In this document: piece after piece, positions 3,005-17,085 of the stretch
Layout of the letters: every line of letters begins with the position of its first letter
How positions within the stretch are numbered: position 1 is the stretch's first letter
Origin: a virus
Strand: one strand, 5' to 3'
DNA: 26,159 nucleotides
Virus record (IMG/VR): IMGVR_UViG_3300021375_000139
Coordinates: 1-26,159 of that record
Made by a program: the position numbers and the translations under genes
Notes under the pieces: generated by a model
What the model saw: only the letters and a program-made list of their open reading frames with translations
Databases searched by the model: none
What the model was told of the DNA's origin: nothing

Positions 3005-3175
3005 ATGCCCCGCATGACCGACGCTCGCCGCGCCCGCCGCGATGCAGCCTTCGCCGAAGTCCTGGCTGAGACCGGCGACATCGACGCGGCGGGCCGTGCG
3101 GTCGGCGTCGGGCACGACGGCTCCAAGAAGATTTTCGTCCAGATCCGCCGCCAGCTCGGCTGGCAGGCCCAATAG
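3005..3175 (+). CDS. Small basic protein, unknown
   Basis: A 56-residue reading frame fills the gap between the methyltransferase and the clamp, starting MPRMTDARRARRDAAF and ending in TAG. It starts two bases after the preceding stop. It is rich in Arg and Ala, and the middle (TGDIDAAGRAVGVGHDGSKK) resembles a short helix-turn-helix like those in phage DNA-binding proteins. I do not recognise the family. The tight spacing and operon-like packing argue that it is translated. ATG 3014 is an alternative start. Confidence 0.6.
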   Translation: MPRMTDARRARRDAAFAEVLAETGDIDAAGRAVGVGHDGSKKIFVQIRRQLGWQAQ

Positions 3176-3188
3176 CAGGAACGCGACC

Positions 3189-4286
3189 ATGACCCATTCC
3201 TTCATCACCGAACGTGCCGCCATCTCTCGCGCTGCCGCCGCCGTCCGCACCGTCGTATCGGCGAACAAGGCAATCCCCGTGCTGAACAATGTGCGCATCG
3301 AGGCGCGCGATGGGCGGGTCGGACTGCTGACCACCAACCAGGACTGCTGGGCGGAGGTGACAATCGCGGCAGCCGTCAACGATCCGTTCGCAATCACCGT
3401 GCCCGCAGCTCTACTGGAGGACATCGCCCGCACCGCGCCGGAGGGCGCGCAGATCGAACTGCTGCTGACTGATACCGGCGCCGCAGCCAAGAGCGGCCGC
3501 GCCCGCTTCCGCCTGCCGACGCTGCCCAGTGATCAGTTCCCGCCGCTAAACGATCACGGCATCGAGCCGCAGCTGCGCATGAAGCTTCCCGACCTGATCG
3601 CTGCGATCTCCGCTGTCGACCATGTGAAGGCTGGCGACCACATGTCCAGCCATCAGGGCGTCCTGCTGCGCGCTATCCCGGGCGGGATCGAATGCGCCGC
3701 CTTCGACGGGAACCGCCTGTCGATCTGCCCGGCCGACGCGGCCATCGATGGCGAGTTCGCGCCGATGACGATCCCCATGCCCGTCGTCGGCAAGATCAAA
3801 TCCGCCATGGCTGTCGGCGTCGATGAAATCACGATCGGCCACAACGGTCGACTGGCCTTGATCCATGGCGGAAACGCCCGCTTCCTCACCCGCCTAGTCG
3901 AGGGCAAGTTCACCGAATATTGGAAAAAGCTGCCCGACACCGTCGGCGAGCCCGTCCTGTTCTCTGCTCGCGACCTGTCCGCTGCCATGGCGCGCGTCGG
4001 CCTCGCTCAAGACCAATTTAACAGCGGCGTGGCCGTCGAGCTCGCGACTGACAGCCTGACGCTCAGCGTGGCCAGCCAGTCGGCTGGCGCGGCCACCGAC
4101 ACCGTCATGGTCGGATATTCCGGCGAAGGGCGCAAAACCGGCTTCTCCCTCCAGTTCCTGCGCGACGCCGTCGGCAAGTGCCCTGGCGACGAGGCTGAAC
4201 TGCATTTCGACGGACTGGGCAACGCCCACGTCTTTGCCCGCTCCCCCAATGCACCGCGGCACATGGTGTGCCCGATGAACGTCTGA
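3189..4286 (+). CDS. dnaN: DNA polymerase III beta subunit (sliding clamp)
   Basis: The 365-residue product matches the normal length of bacterial beta clamps (about 366). It begins MTHSFITERAAISRAAAAV and shows the three-domain pattern, including an early VLNNVRIEA segment, domain-II LPSDQFPPL and the clamp-like C-terminus CPMNV. The clamp rings DNA and tethers polymerase and other partners. The start at 3189 is preferred because AGGA lies before it and the length then fits the family. The longer frame back to 3042 would overlap the small gene at 3005-3175. The sequence differs from typical host clamps, so this is a phage copy rather than the chromosomal gene. It could recruit host polymerase to phage DNA. 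Confidence 0.88.
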   Translation: MTHSFITERAAISRAAAAVRTVVSANKAIPVLNNVRIEARDGRVGLLTTNQDCWAEVTIAAAVNDPFAITVPAALLEDIARTAPEGAQIELLLTDTGAAAKSGRARFRLPTLPSDQFPPLNDHGIEPQLRMKLPDLIAAISAVDHVKAGDHMSSHQGVLLRAIPGGIECAAFDGNRLSICPADAAIDGEFAPMTIPMPVVGKIKSAMAVGVDEITIGHNGRLALIHGGNARFLTRLVEGKFTEYWKKLPDTVGEPVLFSARDLSAAMARVGLAQDQFNSGVAVELATDSLTLSVASQSAGAATDTVMVGYSGEGRKTGFSLQFLRDAVGKCPGDEAELHFDGLGNAHVFARSPNAPRHMVCPMNV

Positions 4287-7531: not shown

Positions 7532-8128
7532 ATGGCGAACGGAGTGGTGAATATGGGCGGGCGGCGAGGTCAGGTCAGTGATAGCGATTGGTGCATCGTT
7601 CGCACCTCGGCAGCGGGGACGATGGCCGTTCATGCCGCCTTGGCAGATGCTGGGATTGAGGCATGGACGCCTATCGGCCTGGAGAAGAAGCTGGTCGGCA
7701 AGACGCGCAAGCCGGTTCAGCGCCGCGTGGCATTGCTGCCCACATTCGCCTTCGCCCGCTATGGCGCGCTGCCCGAACTTCTCCGCCTGTCGCGCTCGCC
7801 GTCCCCATCCTATCAGTGCTGGGATCCTGACGAGAAGCGCATGGTCATGCGCGGCTGCCCGACCTTCTCCATCTTCCGCCATGGATCGATCTATCCAGCC
7901 GTCACCGATCGTGAATTGGACCGCCTGCGCGTGATCGAACAGAAGGGGCGACCGGTTGCGGCGGTGCGAATGATCGAGGCTGGTGAGGCTGTCCGGTATC
8001 CCGATGCGGGCTTCGACGGCCTGACCGGCGTCGTGCAGACGGTGCAGGGCCGCTGGGCATTCGTGCTGTTCGAGGGGTTTGGCCAAAGCGCCAAGGTTGA
8101 TCGCACTCGCCTGCTTTCAGCCGCTTGA
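7532..8128 (+). CDS. NusG/RfaH-like transcription elongation protein
   Basis: The 198-residue protein has the two-part NusG plan. The N-terminal NGN-like domain (about 19-78) includes WCIVRTSAAGTMAVHAALAD and RRVALLPTFAFARY. A KOW-like C-terminal domain (about 148-192) has VRYPDAGFDGLTGVVQTVQG and ends KVDRTRL. NusG paralogues bind RNA polymerase and change pausing or termination. The longer-than-usual link between the domains has two short cysteine-containing segments. The start at 7532 follows AGGGG; ATG 7553 is an alternative. It sits after the replication genes and before the late genes, where a late antiterminator is expected. An antitermination role is inferred. Confidence 0.8.
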   Translation: MANGVVNMGGRRGQVSDSDWCIVRTSAAGTMAVHAALADAGIEAWTPIGLEKKLVGKTRKPVQRRVALLPTFAFARYGALPELLRLSRSPSPSYQCWDPDEKRMVMRGCPTFSIFRHGSIYPAVTDRELDRLRVIEQKGRPVAAVRMIEAGEAVRYPDAGFDGLTGVVQTVQGRWAFVLFEGFGQSAKVDRTRLLSAA

Positions 8129-8309
8129 CGCAATGAGAACGTTTCGGGTACATCGAGATATCGGCTGCAACGGATGCGGCTTCAGGCGTGACCGATATTC
8201 GAGTGTTCCCCTTGATTGGGAACTGCGGTTGCCGACGTACCGGAGCCAGTGCGCTTCGGGCGGTGTGCAACGCAATGGCGCCTGTCTTCCCGAAGAAATG
8301 GAGATCACG
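8129..8309 (+). promoter_or_regulatory. Gene-free leader before the late genes, with imperfect hairpin
   Basis: No convincing gene lies here. An open frame from ATG 8133 continues into the next gene but lacks a ribosome binding site. Bases 8153-8164 (TCGAGATATCGG) pair with 8192-8202 (CCGATATTCGA): 11 pairs with one bulged G and a 27-base loop. TTGACG at 8125-8130 could be a -35 element, but no good -10 element is visible. A promoter plus an RNA site for the NusG-like protein is possible but unproven. Confidence 0.35.
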
Positions 8310-8504
8310 ATGATCAAGAGCATCTTCGCCCTTGTGGCGCTCACCTGCCTGTCTGTCCTGTCCTTCGCATCCAGCGTGGTCGATCGCATCGCCACCGTCG
8401 CGTTCAGCCTCATCCCCACGATGATCAGCACCAAGTCGGCCTTCATCCTGGACAACGGCCACCCACGTTCGCCGCTTGCCTCGCTGCGCGCCGGCGTCGC
8501 CTGA
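8310..8504 (+). CDS. Small membrane or exported protein
   Basis: The 64-residue product starts MIKSIFALVALTCLSVLSFA, a basic residue followed by a long hydrophobic stretch, so it is either a signal peptide or a membrane anchor. A second, weaker hydrophobic segment (IATVAFSLIPTMI) follows at about 27-39, and the tail is polar. ATGGAG at 8298-8303 gives a GGAG before the ATG. ATG 8298 in the same frame is an alternative start. It is the first gene after the gene-free leader. Size and hydrophobicity would also suit a holin or an envelope-acting peptide, but nothing specific supports that. Confidence 0.55.
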   Translation: MIKSIFALVALTCLSVLSFASSVVDRIATVAFSLIPTMISTKSAFILDNGHPRSPLASLRAGVA

Positions 8505-8554
8505 CCCAATAACCAGCGCGCGGGCGTATATCGTCCGGCGATACCGGAGGCGAC

Positions 8555-8782
8555 ATGATCAAGGCGAGTGACGATCTGATCGTTAACCCCGTCCATGTCG
8601 CCTCCATCTCGTGGGATCGCGGCCACACCTATACCGCGATGATCATCACCATGGCCGACGGCACGAAGCATCGCGTTCGGCATGATCCATGCTCGCTCGG
8701 TGGCACCGACTGCTACAACGCTGAGGCTCTGATCTTGGCTGGATATGAGAAGGCCATGGAAGCGGCGGAGCGGTTGGCATGA
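8555..8782 (+). CDS. Small hypothetical phage protein
   Basis: A 75-residue protein with a clear GGAGG seven bases before ATG, starting MIKASDDLIVNPVHVASISW. Alternating hydrophobic residues in the first 45 positions (VHVASISWDR, YTAMIITMADGTKHRV) suggest a small beta-rich fold with a helix at the C-terminus. I do not recognise the family. It is linked by ATGA to the next gene, so the two are probably made together. Confidence 0.65.
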   Translation: MIKASDDLIVNPVHVASISWDRGHTYTAMIITMADGTKHRVRHDPCSLGGTDCYNAEALILAGYEKAMEAAERLA

Positions 8783-8955
8783 GCCAGCACCCCTGCCCCG
8801 CGGATCAAATGGAGCGCCTTGCCGGCGAGCTTCACAGCCTGGCCTTCGACATGCGTGAGCCATCCCGGTCGATTGGCCGCGTCGAGCGCATCATCGCAGA
8901 GGGCGAGCGGATCAGCGCCGAGGTTCGCGCGATAGTGCGCGGTCGGTCTGGCTAA
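8779..8955 (+). CDS. Very small helical hypothetical protein
   Basis: A 58-residue frame beginning MSQHPCPADQMERLAGELHS and ending in TAA, joined to the preceding gene by ATGA. The sequence is amphipathic and probably helical throughout, with charged heptad-like spacing (RVERIIAEGERISAEVRAIV). No family recognised. Support comes from the exact overlap and from following the same small-gene pattern as its neighbours. Confidence 0.55.
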   Translation: MSQHPCPADQMERLAGELHSLAFDMREPSRSIGRVERIIAEGERISAEVRAIVRGRSG

Positions 8956-9209: not shown

Positions 9210-9433
9210 CCGCGGTTGGGTTTGCGCTGGTAGTCGCCCCGATTTTGGCCGGCATCATCGCTCTGGCCTATAATCTCATCTTTTGGCGCACCTATGATGA
9301 GACATGGGCATGGATACACCAGCGCCACAGGCTAACAGGCGACGTCAGACACATCCAAAAGGTTCGCGGCGTGCCAATGGTGCCGCCGCCACCGCCCGCA
9401 GGTTCGCCTCCCCCGCCGCGCCCGCGCAGCTGA
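9206..9433 (+). CDS. Small membrane protein with proline-rich tail
   Basis: The 75-residue product starts MTAVGFALVVAPILAGIIAL, one strong membrane span, followed by a Trp- and Arg-rich segment and a tail with PPPPP and PPPPRPRS. A start at 9206 (ATGA overlap with the previous gene) is preferred over ATG 9194, which would lie inside that gene. One span plus a polyproline tail suggests anchoring and a partner-binding tail. Function unknown; a lysis-related or envelope role cannot be excluded. Confidence 0.55.
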   Translation: MTAVGFALVVAPILAGIIALAYNLIFWRTYDETWAWIHQRHRLTGDVRHIQKVRGVPMVPPPPPAGSPPPPRPRS

Positions 9434-9456
9434 TGGGCGCTTGAAGGAAGTTTGTG

Positions 9457-9663
9457 ATGTCCGATAGTTCGACACCCCTGACCATAAGCATTAAGCCGCC
9501 TCGCTGGGATGGCGGCTTGCCCATGCTGATGATGTGCGACCAGAACGGCGAGCCCCTGCCCGGCCAGGTGTCGTGCCAGGTGACCACCCATGCCGACGGC
9601 ACGTCGCGCGCTGTTGTGACCTTCGAGATCAATAGTCACGACGTCGTGCTATCGAGAACCTGA
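9457..9663 (+). CDS. Small hypothetical protein
   Basis: A 68-residue protein starting MSDSSTPLTISIKPPRWDGG, with GAAGGAAG before ATG 9457. A GTG three bases upstream would add only one residue. The sequence alternates hydrophobic and polar residues (SCQVTTHADG, AVVTFEINSH) and is likely beta-rich. Its stop overlaps the HNH gene start as TGATG, tying it to the packaging-end genes. No family recognised. Confidence 0.6.
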   Translation: MSDSSTPLTISIKPPRWDGGLPMLMMCDQNGEPLPGQVSCQVTTHADGTSRAVVTFEINSHDVVLSRT

Positions 9664-10016
9664 TGGGCAAGCTCAAGGCTCTCGGCTCTCATATCCCGAC
9701 GCTAAAGCCCACCGTCGGGTTCTTTCGACAGGAGCCGAAGGGCGAGACTGCTACGCGCGAGACGTACTCGCCTTGGCGAAAGTGGTACAAGACGGCGAGA
9801 TGGAAGGACCTGCGCCTCAAGATCTTCGCTCGCGACCTATTCACATGCCAGCGACCAGGATGCGGCCGCGTTGAAGGCAACACGTCCCTGCTAGTCGCTG
9901 ACCATCGTGAGCCCCATCGCGGCAATGAGCGCATGTTCTGGGACGAACACAACCTTTGGACTCTCTGCAAGCCCTGTCACGACCAGTGGAAGCAGAAGGT
10001 CGAGCAGGGTCGCTGA
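9663..10016 (+). CDS. HNH endonuclease (HK97 gp74-like position)
   Basis: The 117-residue protein has the zinc-binding pairs C62/C67 and C102/C105 and the HNH core: DH at 80-81, HN at 96-97 and H106 in LCKPCHDQWK. HNH nucleases next to the terminase are needed in HK97-like phages for efficient cutting of cos or of DNA for packaging. A TGATG overlap links it to the preceding gene. In HK97 the HNH gene is last on the genome and cos follows it, so the gap downstream is the place to look for the end site. The family call is secure; a specific packaging role is by analogy. Confidence 0.88.
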   Translation: MGKLKALGSHIPTLKPTVGFFRQEPKGETATRETYSPWRKWYKTARWKDLRLKIFARDLFTCQRPGCGRVEGNTSLLVADHREPHRGNERMFWDEHNLWTLCKPCHDQWKQKVEQGR

Positions 10017-10165
10017 CCCGACCACCCCACCCCTGACCTGCCCCCCCCGGGGGGTATCCCAAAGTCTGGAACCTCGCCTGCCTGGGGACCGGTGCTGCTC
10101 CCACGCAGAGATTTTTTCTTGCTGGAGTGTTGGGGGTGCGAACTTTCGCCGGAGGATGACCGCCG
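10017..10165 (+). other. Candidate cos/packaging region between HNH and terminase
   Basis: This 149-base gap contains no gene. It holds eight C and six G in a row (10041-10054), giving a perfect 12-base palindrome CCCCCCGGGGGG at 10043-10054. A T6 tract lies at 10112-10117, and a GGAGG for the next gene at 10151. HK97 has cos between its HNH gene and small terminase gene. The position and palindrome fit, but the cut site and overhang cannot be read from sequence alone. Confidence 0.45.
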
Positions 10166-10720
10166 ATGGCGACCCGAAAATCAACTATCGATTGGGCTCG
10201 CATCGAGCTCGAATACTTGGCAGGCGAAGATTCGATCAGAGAAATAGCTGATCGACATGAGATTTCAGACACCGCTATTCGTAAGCGGGCAAAGGCCGAA
10301 GGGTGGAAAAGACAGGTTCGCACCGAGAACCGCCGCGAACCAGAGCGATCCCCACCCCCTCCGCCTGCCTCGCACCCGGATAAGCCGCTCAGCCCAGCCG
10401 ATATCGCTGATAACGGGCGGTCGCTGGTTGGTCGCATGCTGGATGAGCTTGACGTGGTCACCAGCCGCCGCGGCGAGCTGGAAGACATCATCATCGAGGC
10501 CACTGACGGCGATGACGATGACGCCAAGCGCACTGCGATGATGCGGGCCGTCAGCCTCTCCGGCCGCGCTAACACGCTCAAGACCCTCGCTCTGGCGCTC
10601 AAGACCATCAACGAGGCTTCGGCGCCTCAGGGCAAGAAGGCAGCAGCGCAGGAAAAGGCAAACGAAGTCGGCCGGCGGTTCGCACCTATCGGCCCGCCGA
10701 CGCTGAAGGCTGTGAAGTAA
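10166..10720 (+). CDS. Terminase small subunit
   Basis: The 184-residue protein starts with a helix-turn-helix ([20 protein letters not shown], then [17 protein letters not shown]), the DNA-binding part of small terminases. A proline-rich linker ([12 protein letters not shown]) and a helical C-terminal part (about 85-150) for oligomer assembly follow. Small terminases recognise the packaging site and guide the large subunit to it. GGAGG at 10151-10155 precedes the ATG. It is followed one base later by the large terminase gene. The order HNH, TerS, TerL supports the call. Confidence 0.85.
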
Positions 10721-10721
10721 C

Positions 10722-12428
10722 GTGCCGACCTGGACGACGGCGTGCCCTGACTGGGAACGCCGGATCGTGGCCAGAGAGCCGCTGATAGCATTCCCGCCGC
10801 TGTTCCCGGAGGTGGCGGCAGCGAAGATGGCAGTGTTCGAGGCGCTCAGCGTCGTCGATCTCGGCATCAATCCGGCGACCGATCGCTATTGGACGATCGG
10901 GGAATCTGCAGATCAATGGCTCCTCGATTTTGCCCGAGCGATCTTCGGGGCATACGACGCCGAAACCGGCCAACAGTTGATCCGCCAGGGCATGCTGTTG
11001 GTGTCAAAGAAGAACACCAAGTCGACGATCGCGGCCGGCATCATGCTGACCGAGTTGATCTGTGGCTGGCGCCCCTCCGATGAGAACCTGATCCTGGCGC
11101 CGACGATCGAGGTCGCCGGCAACAGCTTTAAGCCGGCCTGCGACATGATCCGCGCCGATGAAGAGCTGGACGCGCTTCTGCATATTCAGGAGCATATCCG
11201 CCTCATCACGAACCGCGCGACGAAGGCGACGCTAAAAGTCGTTGCCGCCGACAGCGCGACTGTCTCGGGCAAGAAGGCGAGCCGGGTCCTGGTCGATGAG
11301 CTCTGGCTCTTTGGCGAGAAGAACAATGCCGACGCAATGTTTCGGGAAGCGACCGGCGGCCAGGCATCGCGACCGGAGGGTTACACCCTCTTCCTGACGA
11401 CACAATCGGACAAGCCGCCGGCGGGCGTGTTTAAGTCCAAACTGGAATATGCCCGCGACGTTCGGGACGGCAAGATCGCAAACCCGAAATTCTTGCCGGT
11501 CCTATATGAATTCCCGCAGGATATGATCGCTGCTGAAAAGCACCATGATCCTGCCAACTGGTACGTCACCAATCCGAACCTTGGACGGTCGGTCAGTCTC
11601 GACTTCCTCAAGGATGAATATTCCGAGGTCGAGAACTCGGAGGACGGAACCAAGCAGGTCTTCTTTGCGAAGCATCTCAATATCGAGATCGGCGTCGGGC
11701 TTCGATATGATGCTTGGGTCGGCGCACTGTACTGGGAATCTGCCCAAGCGCCGGTCGAGATTTGGGACGGAACGCTAGAGCAGTTTCTTGAGATTATTGA
11801 GGTCGCTACCGCTGGAATTGACGGCGGTGGGCTCGACGACCTTCTCGGGCTAGCGCTGCTCGGCCGGCACAAGGTCACCAAGCAATGGCTGCTTTATTGC
11901 CGGGCATGGGCCCAGGCTGATGTTTTCGAGCGGCGCAAGGATATCGTCAGCCGCCTCAATGATTTCATTGCCGAGGGCACGCTCCGCAGGTGCGATAACC
12001 CCACGCAAGATCTGGTCGAAATCGCCGACCTTCTTGAGGCCGTCAAGGATGCGGGGTTGTTCCCCGAACAGGCAGCGATCGGACTGGATCCGCAGGGGGT
12101 GACCACCCTCGTAGACGAGTTGACCGGTCGCGGATTTACGCTCGAACAGATGTTGGCCGTACCGCAGGGCTTCCGTTTGTCGGGGGCGATATGGGGATCT
12201 GAGCGGAAGCTGAAGGATGGCACGCTCATCCACGCCGGACAGAAGCTCATGGATTGGTGCGCGGGCAATGCGAAGGCGGAGCAGCGCGGCAATGCTGTCC
12301 TCATAACGAAGCAGGTCGCCGGCAAGGCCAAGATCGACCCGCTGATAGCCGCATTCAACGCCGTGATGCTCATGAGCCGCAACCCAGAGGCCCAGGGCGA
12401 AAAGTCTTATCAGATGCTGATCCTGTGA
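10722..12428 (+). CDS. terL: Terminase large subunit
   Basis: A 568-residue packaging motor with an N-terminal ATPase and a C-terminal nuclease. The Walker A-like segment is SKKNTKST at 95-102, Walker B RVLVDELW at 188-195 and a coupling motif LFLTTQS at 223-229. Nuclease acids are likely D367 (GIDGGG), D456 (GLDPQG) and D539 (IDPL), the usual RNase H-like trio. It starts with GTG at 10722, one base after the TerS stop. The Walker A has T where many large terminases have G before the K; the motif otherwise fits HK97-type enzymes. It uses ATP to pump DNA into the prohead and cuts it at the end. The call is strong. Confidence 0.93.
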
Positions 12429-14838: not shown

Positions 14839-16205
14839 TGAACGTTTTTGGCCTTTCCATCACGCGCGCCAAGGCGGCGACGTCGTTGTCGCCTGTCGAC
14901 AACCGCGGCGGCTGGTGGCCGATCTTATCGGAAGCGTTTGTCGGCGCCTTCCAGCGAGACATCAAAGTCAATCAGGCAGCGGTCGTCGCCAACCATGCCG
15001 TGTTCGCCTGCCAGACGCTGATCGCCAGCGACGTGGCGAAGCTGCGTGTGAAGCTCGTCGCACAGGACAGCGATGGTATCTGGTCAGAGACGAAAAACCC
15101 GGCATATAGCCCGGTCCTGCGCAAGCCGAACCATTTTCAGAACCGCATCCAGTTTTACGAAACTTGGGTGCTGTCAAAACTGCAGCGCGGCAACACCTAT
15201 GTGTTGAAGCAGCGCGACGGGCGCAACGCCGTGACCGCGCTCTATGTCCTCAATCCGGATCGGGTCACCCCGCTCGTCGCGCCCGACGGCAGCGTTTTCT
15301 ATGATCTCCAGCTCGATGATCTGGCTGGCGTCACCGAAAACGTGATCGTGCCCGCGCGCGAGATCATCCACGACCGATTCAATTGCCTTTTCCACCCACT
15401 GGTGGGCCTGTCCCCAATCTTCGCCAACGGCCTGGCCGCGACCCAAGGGCTTGCAGTCCAGACTGCCAGCACTCGCCTGTTTCAGAACGGCGCGCGCCCC
15501 GGTGGCATCCTCACGGCGCCCGGCAACATCAGCGACATCACCGCCCAGCGGCTCAAGGCGCACTGGGACAAGGAATATTCCGGCGAGAATTCGGGCAAGG
15601 TCGCCGTCCTGGGTGACGGGCTGAAGTTCGAAGCCATGGCGATGAAGGCCACCGACGCCCAGCTGGTCGAGCAGTTGAAATGGTCAGCCGAAGTCGTTTG
15701 CTCGACCTACCATGTCCCGCCGTACAAGGTCGGGGTTGGCGCGCAGCCGACTTACAACAACGTCCAGGCCCTCAATGTCGAATATTTCGGCCAATGCCTG
15801 CAGGTGCTGATCGAGGCGATCGAGCTTTGCCTAGACGAGGGCTTGGCCACGGGCGAGGGTCTGGGTACGGAATTCGACACCGAAAACCTACTGCGCATGG
15901 ACGCGGCGACACAGATGGATGTGCTTGAAAAGAGCAAGGGCATCTTGTCGCCGAACGAGCAGCGCGCCAAGCTCGACAAGAAGCCGAAGCCTGGTGGCGA
16001 CAGTCCGATGCTTCAGCAGCAGAATTACAGCCTTGAAGCCCTAGCCAAGCGCGACGCGAAAGATGACCCCTTCACCAGCGGCCGGGCAACCGCTGTTGGT
16101 GAGCCAAAAGCGGTCAACGACAATCAACAGGCGCGCGACAAAACCTTCGCTCTGTCGGGCAAGGTGCGTCAAGTGCTTCGCGAGCAAAGGAAGTCAGATG
16201 CTTGA
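14838..16205 (+). CDS. Portal protein
   Basis: The 455-residue product matches the HK97-type portal. It has ANHAVFACQTLIASDVAKLR near the start, the long helical wing region with GNTYVLKQRDGR, VLNPDRVTPLVAPDG and an IIHDRF motif, and a stem-like helix (STYHVPPYKVGVGAQPTYNN) followed by the VEYFGQCLQVLIEAIE crown region. The portal forms the dodecameric ring at the head vertex through which DNA enters and leaves. The disordered charged C-terminus (RQVLREQRKSDA) is common. TGATG overlap with the previous gene and an 8-base overlap with the next. It is downstream of the capsid gene rather than upstream of the protease. Confidence 0.93.
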   Translation: MNVFGLSITRAKAATSLSPVDNRGGWWPILSEAFVGAFQRDIKVNQAAVVANHAVFACQTLIASDVAKLRVKLVAQDSDGIWSETKNPAYSPVLRKPNHFQNRIQFYETWVLSKLQRGNTYVLKQRDGRNAVTALYVLNPDRVTPLVAPDGSVFYDLQLDDLAGVTENVIVPAREIIHDRFNCLFHPLVGLSPIFANGLAATQGLAVQTASTRLFQNGARPGGILTAPGNISDITAQRLKAHWDKEYSGENSGKVAVLGDGLKFEAMAMKATDAQLVEQLKWSAEVVCSTYHVPPYKVGVGAQPTYNNVQALNVEYFGQCLQVLIEAIELCLDEGLATGEGLGTEFDTENLLRMDAATQMDVLEKSKGILSPNEQRAKLDKKPKPGGDSPMLQQQNYSLEALAKRDAKDDPFTSGRATAVGEPKAVNDNQQARDKTFALSGKVRQVLREQRKSDA

Positions 16206-17085
16206 TATGGAGGTTCTGGCTTCGGAGATCGCCGCGATTGTTTCCGAGGAGGTGGAGCGCAGCACCGCACCGATCATCGCTGAGAACAAGGCGCTGCGTG
16301 AACGTATGGCCGCGCTTGAGGCTCGGTCGGCCGAAGCGGGCCCCGCCGGCGCTGACGGTCAGGACGGTCGCGACGGTGCTGACGGCAAGGATGGCCAGGA
16401 TGGTCGCGACGGTAAGGACCTCGACCCGGTCACGCTCCGCGGGATTGTGTCTGAGATCGTGCAGGCCGAAGTGTCGAAACAGGTGCCGGAAGCCATTGCC
16501 GCCCTGCCCGCACCCGAGCGCGGCGAGAAGGGTGAGGATGGCGAACCCGGCGCCGATGGCGATGCTGGAGCCGATGGCCAGGACGGTCGCGATGGTGCCG
16601 ACGGCAAGGATGGCGTCGACGGGCAGGACGGGAAAGACGGCCGCGACGGCGTCGACGGCAAGGATGGCGCCGGCATCGCTGATCTCGTCATCGACCGCGA
16701 CGGCAACCTGATCGCGTCCTTCACCGATGGGCGGATGAAGCATCTTGGCCAGGTCGTCGGCAAAGACGGCCGCGATGGCGGCGACGGCAAGGACGGCATC
16801 CCCTTCGGCGTCGACGATCTCGACATGACCCTGATGGAGGACGGTCGCACCCTGCGAATGTCCTTCACCAAGGGTGATACCGAATATGCGTTCCAGATCC
16901 CCTTCCCCGTCGTGATCGACCGTGGCGTGTTCGCCGACGGTAAGTCTTACGAGGAGGGCGACGGTGTCACCTGGGGTGGTAGCTTCTGGATCGCGCAGCG
17001 CGCGACCGGATCGAAGCCGGACAGTGCTGACAGCGGCTGGCGGCTTGCTGTGAAGCGCGGCCGTGACGGGAAGGACAAGGCCTGA
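16198..17085 (+). CDS. Collagen-like protein with possible carbohydrate-binding C-terminus
   Basis: A 295-residue protein with a coiled-coil N-terminus (about 1-45) and Gly-X-Y collagen tracts at about 48-73, 109-158 and 188-200. The tracts are mainly of GADGQDGRDG and GKDGVDGQDG types. The C-terminus (YEEGDGVTWGGSFWIAQRAT, then GWRLAVKRGRDGK) looks like a chitin-binding or CBM5/12-like module. Collagen-like proteins form trimeric fibres and occur on phage heads and tails. The start at 16198 follows AAAGGAAG and overlaps the portal end by 8 bases. The frame open further upstream is shadow of the portal. Between portal and connector genes, it is probably a head or neck fibre that touches the host surface or its polysaccharide. 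The exact site is inferred. Confidence 0.8.
   Translation: MLDMEVLASEIAAIVSEEVERSTAPIIAENKALRERMAALEARSAEAGPAGADGQDGRDGADGKDGQDGRDGKDLDPVTLRGIVSEIVQAEVSKQVPEAIAALPAPERGEKGEDGEPGADGDAGADGQDGRDGADGKDGVDGQDGKDGRDGVDGKDGAGIADLVIDRDGNLIASFTDGRMKHLGQVVGKDGRDGGDGKDGIPFGVDDLDMTLMEDGRTLRMSFTKGDTEYAFQIPFPVVIDRGVFADGKSYEEGDGVTWGGSFWIAQRATGSKPDSADSGWRLAVKRGRDGKDKA
16350..16800 (+). repeat. Imperfect 9-base-unit repeats encoding collagen tracts
   Basis: The collagen tracts are built from 9-base units such as GACGGTCAG, GACGGTCGC and GATGGTGCC, and longer blocks are repeated: part of 16353-16413 recurs, with silent changes, near 16567-16650. Such arrays can gain or lose units by slippage or recombination, so the number of Gly-X-Y triplets may vary between related phages. 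The array is coding throughout. Confidence 0.7.

Follow-up and report, generated by a model that had tools for sequence, protein, structure and literature searches.

Genes and features of the locus

The window, that is, the whole stretch of DNA that was analyzed, is a 26,159-base virus record of IMG/VR. It contains a NusG-like gene followed by a leader and then by a late block. The features of the locus, all on the plus strand and numbered by position in the window, are as follows.

7532 to 8128 (+): gene of a NusG paralogue of 198 aa, stop codon included (phrog_6386, AlphaFold, and PDB matches)
7580 to 7945 (+): predicted NGN domain of the RNA-polymerase-binding type, residues 17-138 (VIA-align on RfaH NGN)
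7973 to 8125 (+): predicted KOW domain, residues 148-198 (VIA-align on Spt5 KOW)
8125 to 8154 (+): putative late promoter, with -35 TTGACG (8125-8130) on the nusG stop codon, an 18-base spacer, and -10 TACATC (8149-8154)
8164 to 8278 (+): conserved structured RNA element with four helices, P0-P1-P2-P3 (covariance model R2)
8164 to 8180 (+): P0, GCTGC (8164-8168), loop AACGGAT, GCGGC (8176-8180)
8205 to 8223 (+): P1, apical part, GTTCCC (8205-8210) with GGGAAC (8218-8223), read from the sequence
8240 to 8259 (+): P2, hypervariable, CCGGAGC (8240-8246) with GCTTCGG (8253-8259)
8266 to 8274 (+): P3, mini-hairpin, TGC-AAC-GCA
8310 to 8504 (+): first late-block gene, encoding a 64-residue predicted membrane-type peptide, with an in-frame ATG at 8298
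10166 to 12428 (+): terminase small and large subunits (PHROG matches), the gene-order anchors in relatives, in the downstream block

The original prediction had described the product of the gene at 7532-8128 as a NusG/RfaH-like protein with NGN and KOW parts, and our analyses confirmed this. The protein matched phrog_6386, "transcription antiterminator," with an E value of 1e-39, residues 10 to 196 aligning with positions 5 to 175 of the 179 positions of the profile. No Pfam NusG model was significant for it. The NCBIfam models for UpxY (27.5 bits, 2.7e-6) and RfaH (12.6 bits) scored under their cutoffs of 100 bits and of 144.5 bits, the latter being an equivalog cutoff. We built an AlphaFold model using 21 relatives (mean pLDDT of 85), and the best PDB matches found for it by Foldseek were NusG, RfaH, and Spt5. 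VIA-align superposed residues 17 to 138 on the NGN domain of RfaH (Z of 10.0, rmsd of 2.3 over 99 residues) and residues 148 to 198 on the KOW domain of Spt5 (Z of 10.0, rmsd of 0.9 over 51 residues). The modeled protein hence combines an NGN fold with a C-terminal KOW beta-barrel, as expected of the NusG/Spt5 family. Judging by these superpositions and by the PHROG match, it is a NusG paralogue in which both standard domains are present. Membership of the lambda Q family was not found, as the PHROGs search returned phrog_6386 only no antitermination-Q model of Pfam matched at an E value of ≤1, and the fold is that of NusG.

Judged by their large terminases, the nearest relatives of the window are phages and prophages of Sphingomonas and its relatives. 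Direct queries of the phage and plasmid collections with the NusG-like protein gave no matches, and the sole match in a single-protein viral scan was a relative, L003, whose NusG-like protein is 97% identical to that of the window. Searching through the large terminase revealed NusG-like genes at the same place in diverged phages, with 30 to 43% identity, and a wider terminase-locus search yielded further ones across the Alphaproteobacteria. In the viral relatives, the gene lies approximately 2 to 3 kb upstream of the large terminase gene. With a profile search, 45 genomes carrying it were identified among the 295 of one Sphingomonas genus group, and 10 among 396 sampled across the order.

Three other features were noted in the window. 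A phage-encoded protein resembling DNA polymerase sliding clamps is found at 3042-4286 (phrog_947, E value of 2e-55), and an open reading frame among the structural genes, at 16063-17085, contains a long collagen-like Gly-X-Y repeat (DGKDGQDGRDG). A perfect 12-base inverted repeat, GGAGGCGACATG / CATGTCGCCTCC, surrounds the start of a 75-residue gene at 8555 (window positions 8546-8605) and could hide the ribosome-binding site of that gene.

Structured RNA in the leader

The leader comprises 181 bases between the nusG stop codon (8126-8128) and the ATG at 8310. It is gene free as originally described, except for the earlier in-frame ATG at 8298. An 11-pair hairpin had been proposed in this leader, and the stem is indeed present, with TCGA[G]ATATCGG (8153-8164) facing CCGATATTCGA (8192-8202). 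Nevertheless, stems of at least 11 pairs arose in 131 of 200 dinucleotide shuffles of the leader, so that a hairpin as good is expected by chance. The stem was kept only in the near relative L003 and was not seen in L013, L176, or L177. We thus rejected it as a conserved feature. The left arm of the stem and the putative -10 element overlap. Folding of the single leader sequence was likewise discarded as evidence for structure, since the leader folded alone is no more stable than shuffled sequences (minimum free energy z-score of -0.39). Low-score Rfam matches near the leader fell under the gathering scores and were taken as chance.

What is conserved in the leader is a different element. Alignment of the leaders after the nusG stop codon across 78 loci revealed a recurring pattern of four parts: P0 is a hairpin of five pairs around the stop codon, P1 a further stem, P2 a stem of hypervariable sequence, and P3 a mini-hairpin whose short loop contains A. 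P0 was assessed without alignment by anchoring the sequences on the stop codon. All five positions paired in 24 of 60 loci, whereas 5000 permutations gave 11 on average and never more than 19; GCCGC/GCGGC and GCTGC/GCAGC were the most frequent forms. As RNAalifold run on a mixed MAFFT alignment retained P0 alone, the structure was given by hand on eight sequences and then extended.

The covariance model R1 was made from those eight sequences in a MAFFT alignment (A4) that was not fitted to the structure. In A4, 90.4% of the cells were paired, compared with 82.7% after shuffling and at most 47% with slid partners, and none of 500 shuffles reached its covariation score. Run on both strands of 73 loci (586 kb), R1 gave 44 matches at an E value of ≤1, at least 36 of them outside the seed, and all 44 were located at the 3' end of a NusG-like gene on the gene's own strand. 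In alignment A5, which was fitted to the structure, pairing reached 92.7% of cells versus 72.5% shuffled and at most 55% slid, and 20 of the 21 pairs had changed on both sides somewhere. Overall, 20 to 21 of the 21 pairs covary. For instance, at pair 3-21 of P0, U-A replaces C-G in 16 sequences, P2 positions show both-sided changes in up to 28 of 57 sequences, and the outer pair of P3 is C-G in 39 sequences and G-C in 14. The P3 sequence TGTGCAACGCA is identical in L197.

A second model, R2, extended the element to about 55 loci in Sphingomonas prophages and viral contigs, where it comes immediately after the NusG-like gene. Alignment-guided scans were unsuccessful, as conserved words are lacking. 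R2 placed the element at 8164-8278 of the window with a modest score of 27.6 bits, its training set including the near relative L003; the next best match scored 0.9 bits. The P1 helix of the model matched P1 of the window weakly. R1, which had been trained without L003, nevertheless matched the expected position in L003 (18.9 bits), L176, and L177. By this covariation, the element at 8164-8278 is shown to fold as an RNA structure. The prediction of a structure in the leader ahead of the late operon is thus supported, although the conserved part is this covarying element and not the hairpin that had been named. None of the 4227 models of Rfam 15 matched the element of the window or that of L173 at an E value of ≤5, and 12 loci gave tRNAs only.

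The nature of the conserved feature bears on two readings in which DNA is the active form. Location approximately 2 kb ahead of the gene for the small terminase subunit might suggest a DNA site for packaging or recombination; the compensatory changes with many G-U pairs and the fixed strand next to the gene make this extremely improbable. Alternatively, recruitment of the paralogue might resemble that of RfaH and depend on the nontemplate DNA strand at an ops-like pause, with the RNA serving, for example, for pause shaping or transcript protection. RfaH with ops is the best-known precedent (PMC7819879), and the NGN domain is structurally closest to that of RfaH. What is conserved here, however, is base pairing that includes wobble pairs rather than a fixed word, and the stem sequences vary freely, so that we regard recruitment by DNA as unlikely and favor the RNA as the site.

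Link between RNA and gene, and exchange of a putative regulator slot

We searched the same 295 Sphingomonas genomes with R2 and obtained 37 matches in 34 genomes. Thirty-five of the 37 adjoin a NusG-like gene, a count that speaks for specificity and not for sensitivity since most of these 35 belonged to the training set. In 78 terminase loci devoid of a NusG-like gene (1.27 Mb), R2 gave two marginal matches, which is about the chance level. These genomic distributions show that the RNA is linked to the gene. The two genome matches without an intact NusG-like gene are in L227, where a weak fragment match to the NusG-like protein is found elsewhere in the locus, and in L252 (6205-6311, minus strand). 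The L252 contig, in which no NusG-like gene was found, also carries an OLD-family nuclease, a UvrD-like helicase, and a fragment of an IS110-like transposase; the nuclease and helicase were judged by eye from their translations to be a Gabija-like pair.

The relative L015 is 90% identical to the window over 8313-8942 and 87% identical over 9394-10659, and it has no match over nusG and the leader. Its slot contains instead an unrelated protein (L015:4344-5531) together with a leader whose intrinsic terminator, GAAGGCCCG...CGGGCCTTT TTCTTT, lies just before the first late gene. As L015 shares the late operon and lacks both nusG and the element, these two seem to be swapped together as a single module. 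The L015-type protein was also found in terminase relatives without nusG (L014, L017, L025, L029/L085, and L091), and a second unrelated protein occupies the slot in L007 (5990-6637), L022/L088, and L027. None of the close terminase relatives was found to contain both slot proteins, and neither of these could be named by searches of Pfam and PHROGs. The slot thus looks like one in which late regulators can replace one another, each bringing a leader of its own, and the two unnamed families are candidate late regulators.

These observations also bear on the possibility that the RNA alone acts on the polymerase against pausing and termination, the NusG paralogue being a general elongation factor. 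The put RNA of phage HK022 does modify the polymerase without a phage protein (PMC9378689). A self-sufficient RNA needs no link to a gene, and here 35 of the 37 genome matches adjoin one and L015 lacks gene and leader together, which makes such an RNA very unlikely. A protein and RNA acting as a pair is the reading that we retain.

A putative late promoter and a proposed antitermination model

Between the nusG stop codon and the element lies a promoter-like sequence, TTGACG-N18-TACATC, the activity of which we infer from its sequence and conservation. L003 has a promoter-like sequence at the same position and with the same spacing, as do L013 (TTGACG-N18-TACTGT), L176 (TTGACC-N18-TATTGT), and L177 (TTGACG-N18-TATTGA), and in all five the TTGAC overlaps the stop codon of the NusG-like gene. 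A simple sigma-70 scan missed it, as that scan accepts only -10 hexamers whose second base is A and whose sixth base is T. The predicted start, at approximately 8160-8162 in the window, is about 3 to 4 bases before the element, whose P0 begins at 8164. With such a start, the late transcripts of the window's clade would carry the element at their extreme 5' end. Most other relatives showed no promoter between the nusG stop codon and the element, and their P0 spans the stop codon; in these, the element would be cotranscribed with nusG by read-through from upstream.

The position of P0 across the stop codon in most relatives could also indicate a noncoding RNA or a structure of the nusG messenger 3' end, with a role in stability, processing, or NusG feedback. 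In agreement with this, tRNA genes directly follow the element in two phages (L006:5691-5748 and L018:6635-6708). In the window's clade, nonetheless, the conserved promoter-like sequence between stop codon and element would put the element at the head of the downstream transcript, and a 3'-end role therefore appears improbable to us.

We propose that the NusG paralogue and its own cis-acting RNA probably form a late-gene module that makes late transcription processive in a LoaP-like manner. The NusG-like gene would be expressed with the early and replication genes upstream of it. In the window's clade, the late transcript would then start at the promoter overlapping the nusG stop codon, and the nascent RNA would fold into P0-P1-P2-P3 at its head. 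The paralogue would be recruited at the folded RNA, and its NGN domain would keep it on the host polymerase, where it would take the position of host NusG. The polymerase could thereby transcribe the long late block processively, most likely by exclusion of NusG/Rho-dependent termination. In the 400 bases downstream of the element, intrinsic terminators were not enriched (5 of 57 loci versus 3.6 expected), and for this reason Rho appears to be the likelier target. Joint action of a phage NusG paralogue and a structured leader ahead of the late operon, as the original prediction had it, is strongly supported by a covarying RNA tied to the gene, by the slot just upstream of the terminase genes, and by the exchange in L015, even though the hairpin it named is not the conserved structure; antitermination would be the probable outcome.

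Control of phage late genes is known mainly from the enterobacterial lambda-type N, Q, and put systems. The lambda Q protein is not a relative of NusG and works through a DNA site at the promoter, and lambda N is a short disordered peptide that relies on the NusG of the host. The present locus resembles that of lambda Q with pR' in its gene order, with a regulator gene, a promoter-like sequence at the nusG stop codon, a leader, and late genes; it differs from it in having a NusG paralogue as the phage protein and RNA as the conserved site. Similar to HK022 put and to lambda N with nut, it would achieve phage antitermination through a structured nascent RNA, but unlike put, which involves no phage protein, and unlike N, the phage supplies its own NusG-type protein. 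With RfaH it shares a specialized NusG paralogue with a structurally close NGN domain; RfaH, however, is recruited by the ops DNA element in the nontemplate strand, whereas the phage system has a covarying RNA element. The closest likeness is to LoaP of Bacillus velezensis, a NusG paralogue that needs an RNA hairpin in the dfn leader for antitermination (PMC12691694). Both combine a NusG paralogue with a structured RNA in the 5' leader that precedes a long operon. LoaP acts in bacterial antibiotic operons through one small UNCG hairpin and on an intrinsic terminator, whereas here the gene belongs to a phage, the element has four helices over about 100 to 115 bases, the site directly follows the gene, and the leader has no conserved intrinsic terminator after the element.

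The phrog_6386 entry provides a name only, with no RNA partner or target recorded, and our search of open-access papers found no phage NusG factor with an RNA site. We lean toward a new class of late regulator, in which a NusG paralogue would work with a dedicated four-helix RNA antitermination site absent from Rfam, occur in about one in seven Sphingomonas genomes, and be module-swapped with unrelated late regulators. If so, a NusG paralogue that has an RNA of its own is at work in alphaproteobacterial phages, and LoaP-like RNA-guided NusG factors extend to phages and to Gram-negative bacteria. The pair is compact, with one protein and approximately 115 bases of RNA, and its dozens of natural variants could serve to probe the site specificity of NusG factors. 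Its RNA is, moreover, a structured element that Rfam 15 does not include.

The NusG-like genes found in other Alphaproteobacteria did not have the R2 element. The leaders of three of these genes from outside Sphingomonas (L099, L101, and L072) contain strong intrinsic-terminator-like sequences, and these genes may use another RNA site. In two Methylobacterium loci (L104 and L120), a common word, AGTTTGAAAT-TGAT, is found shortly after the nusG stop codon.
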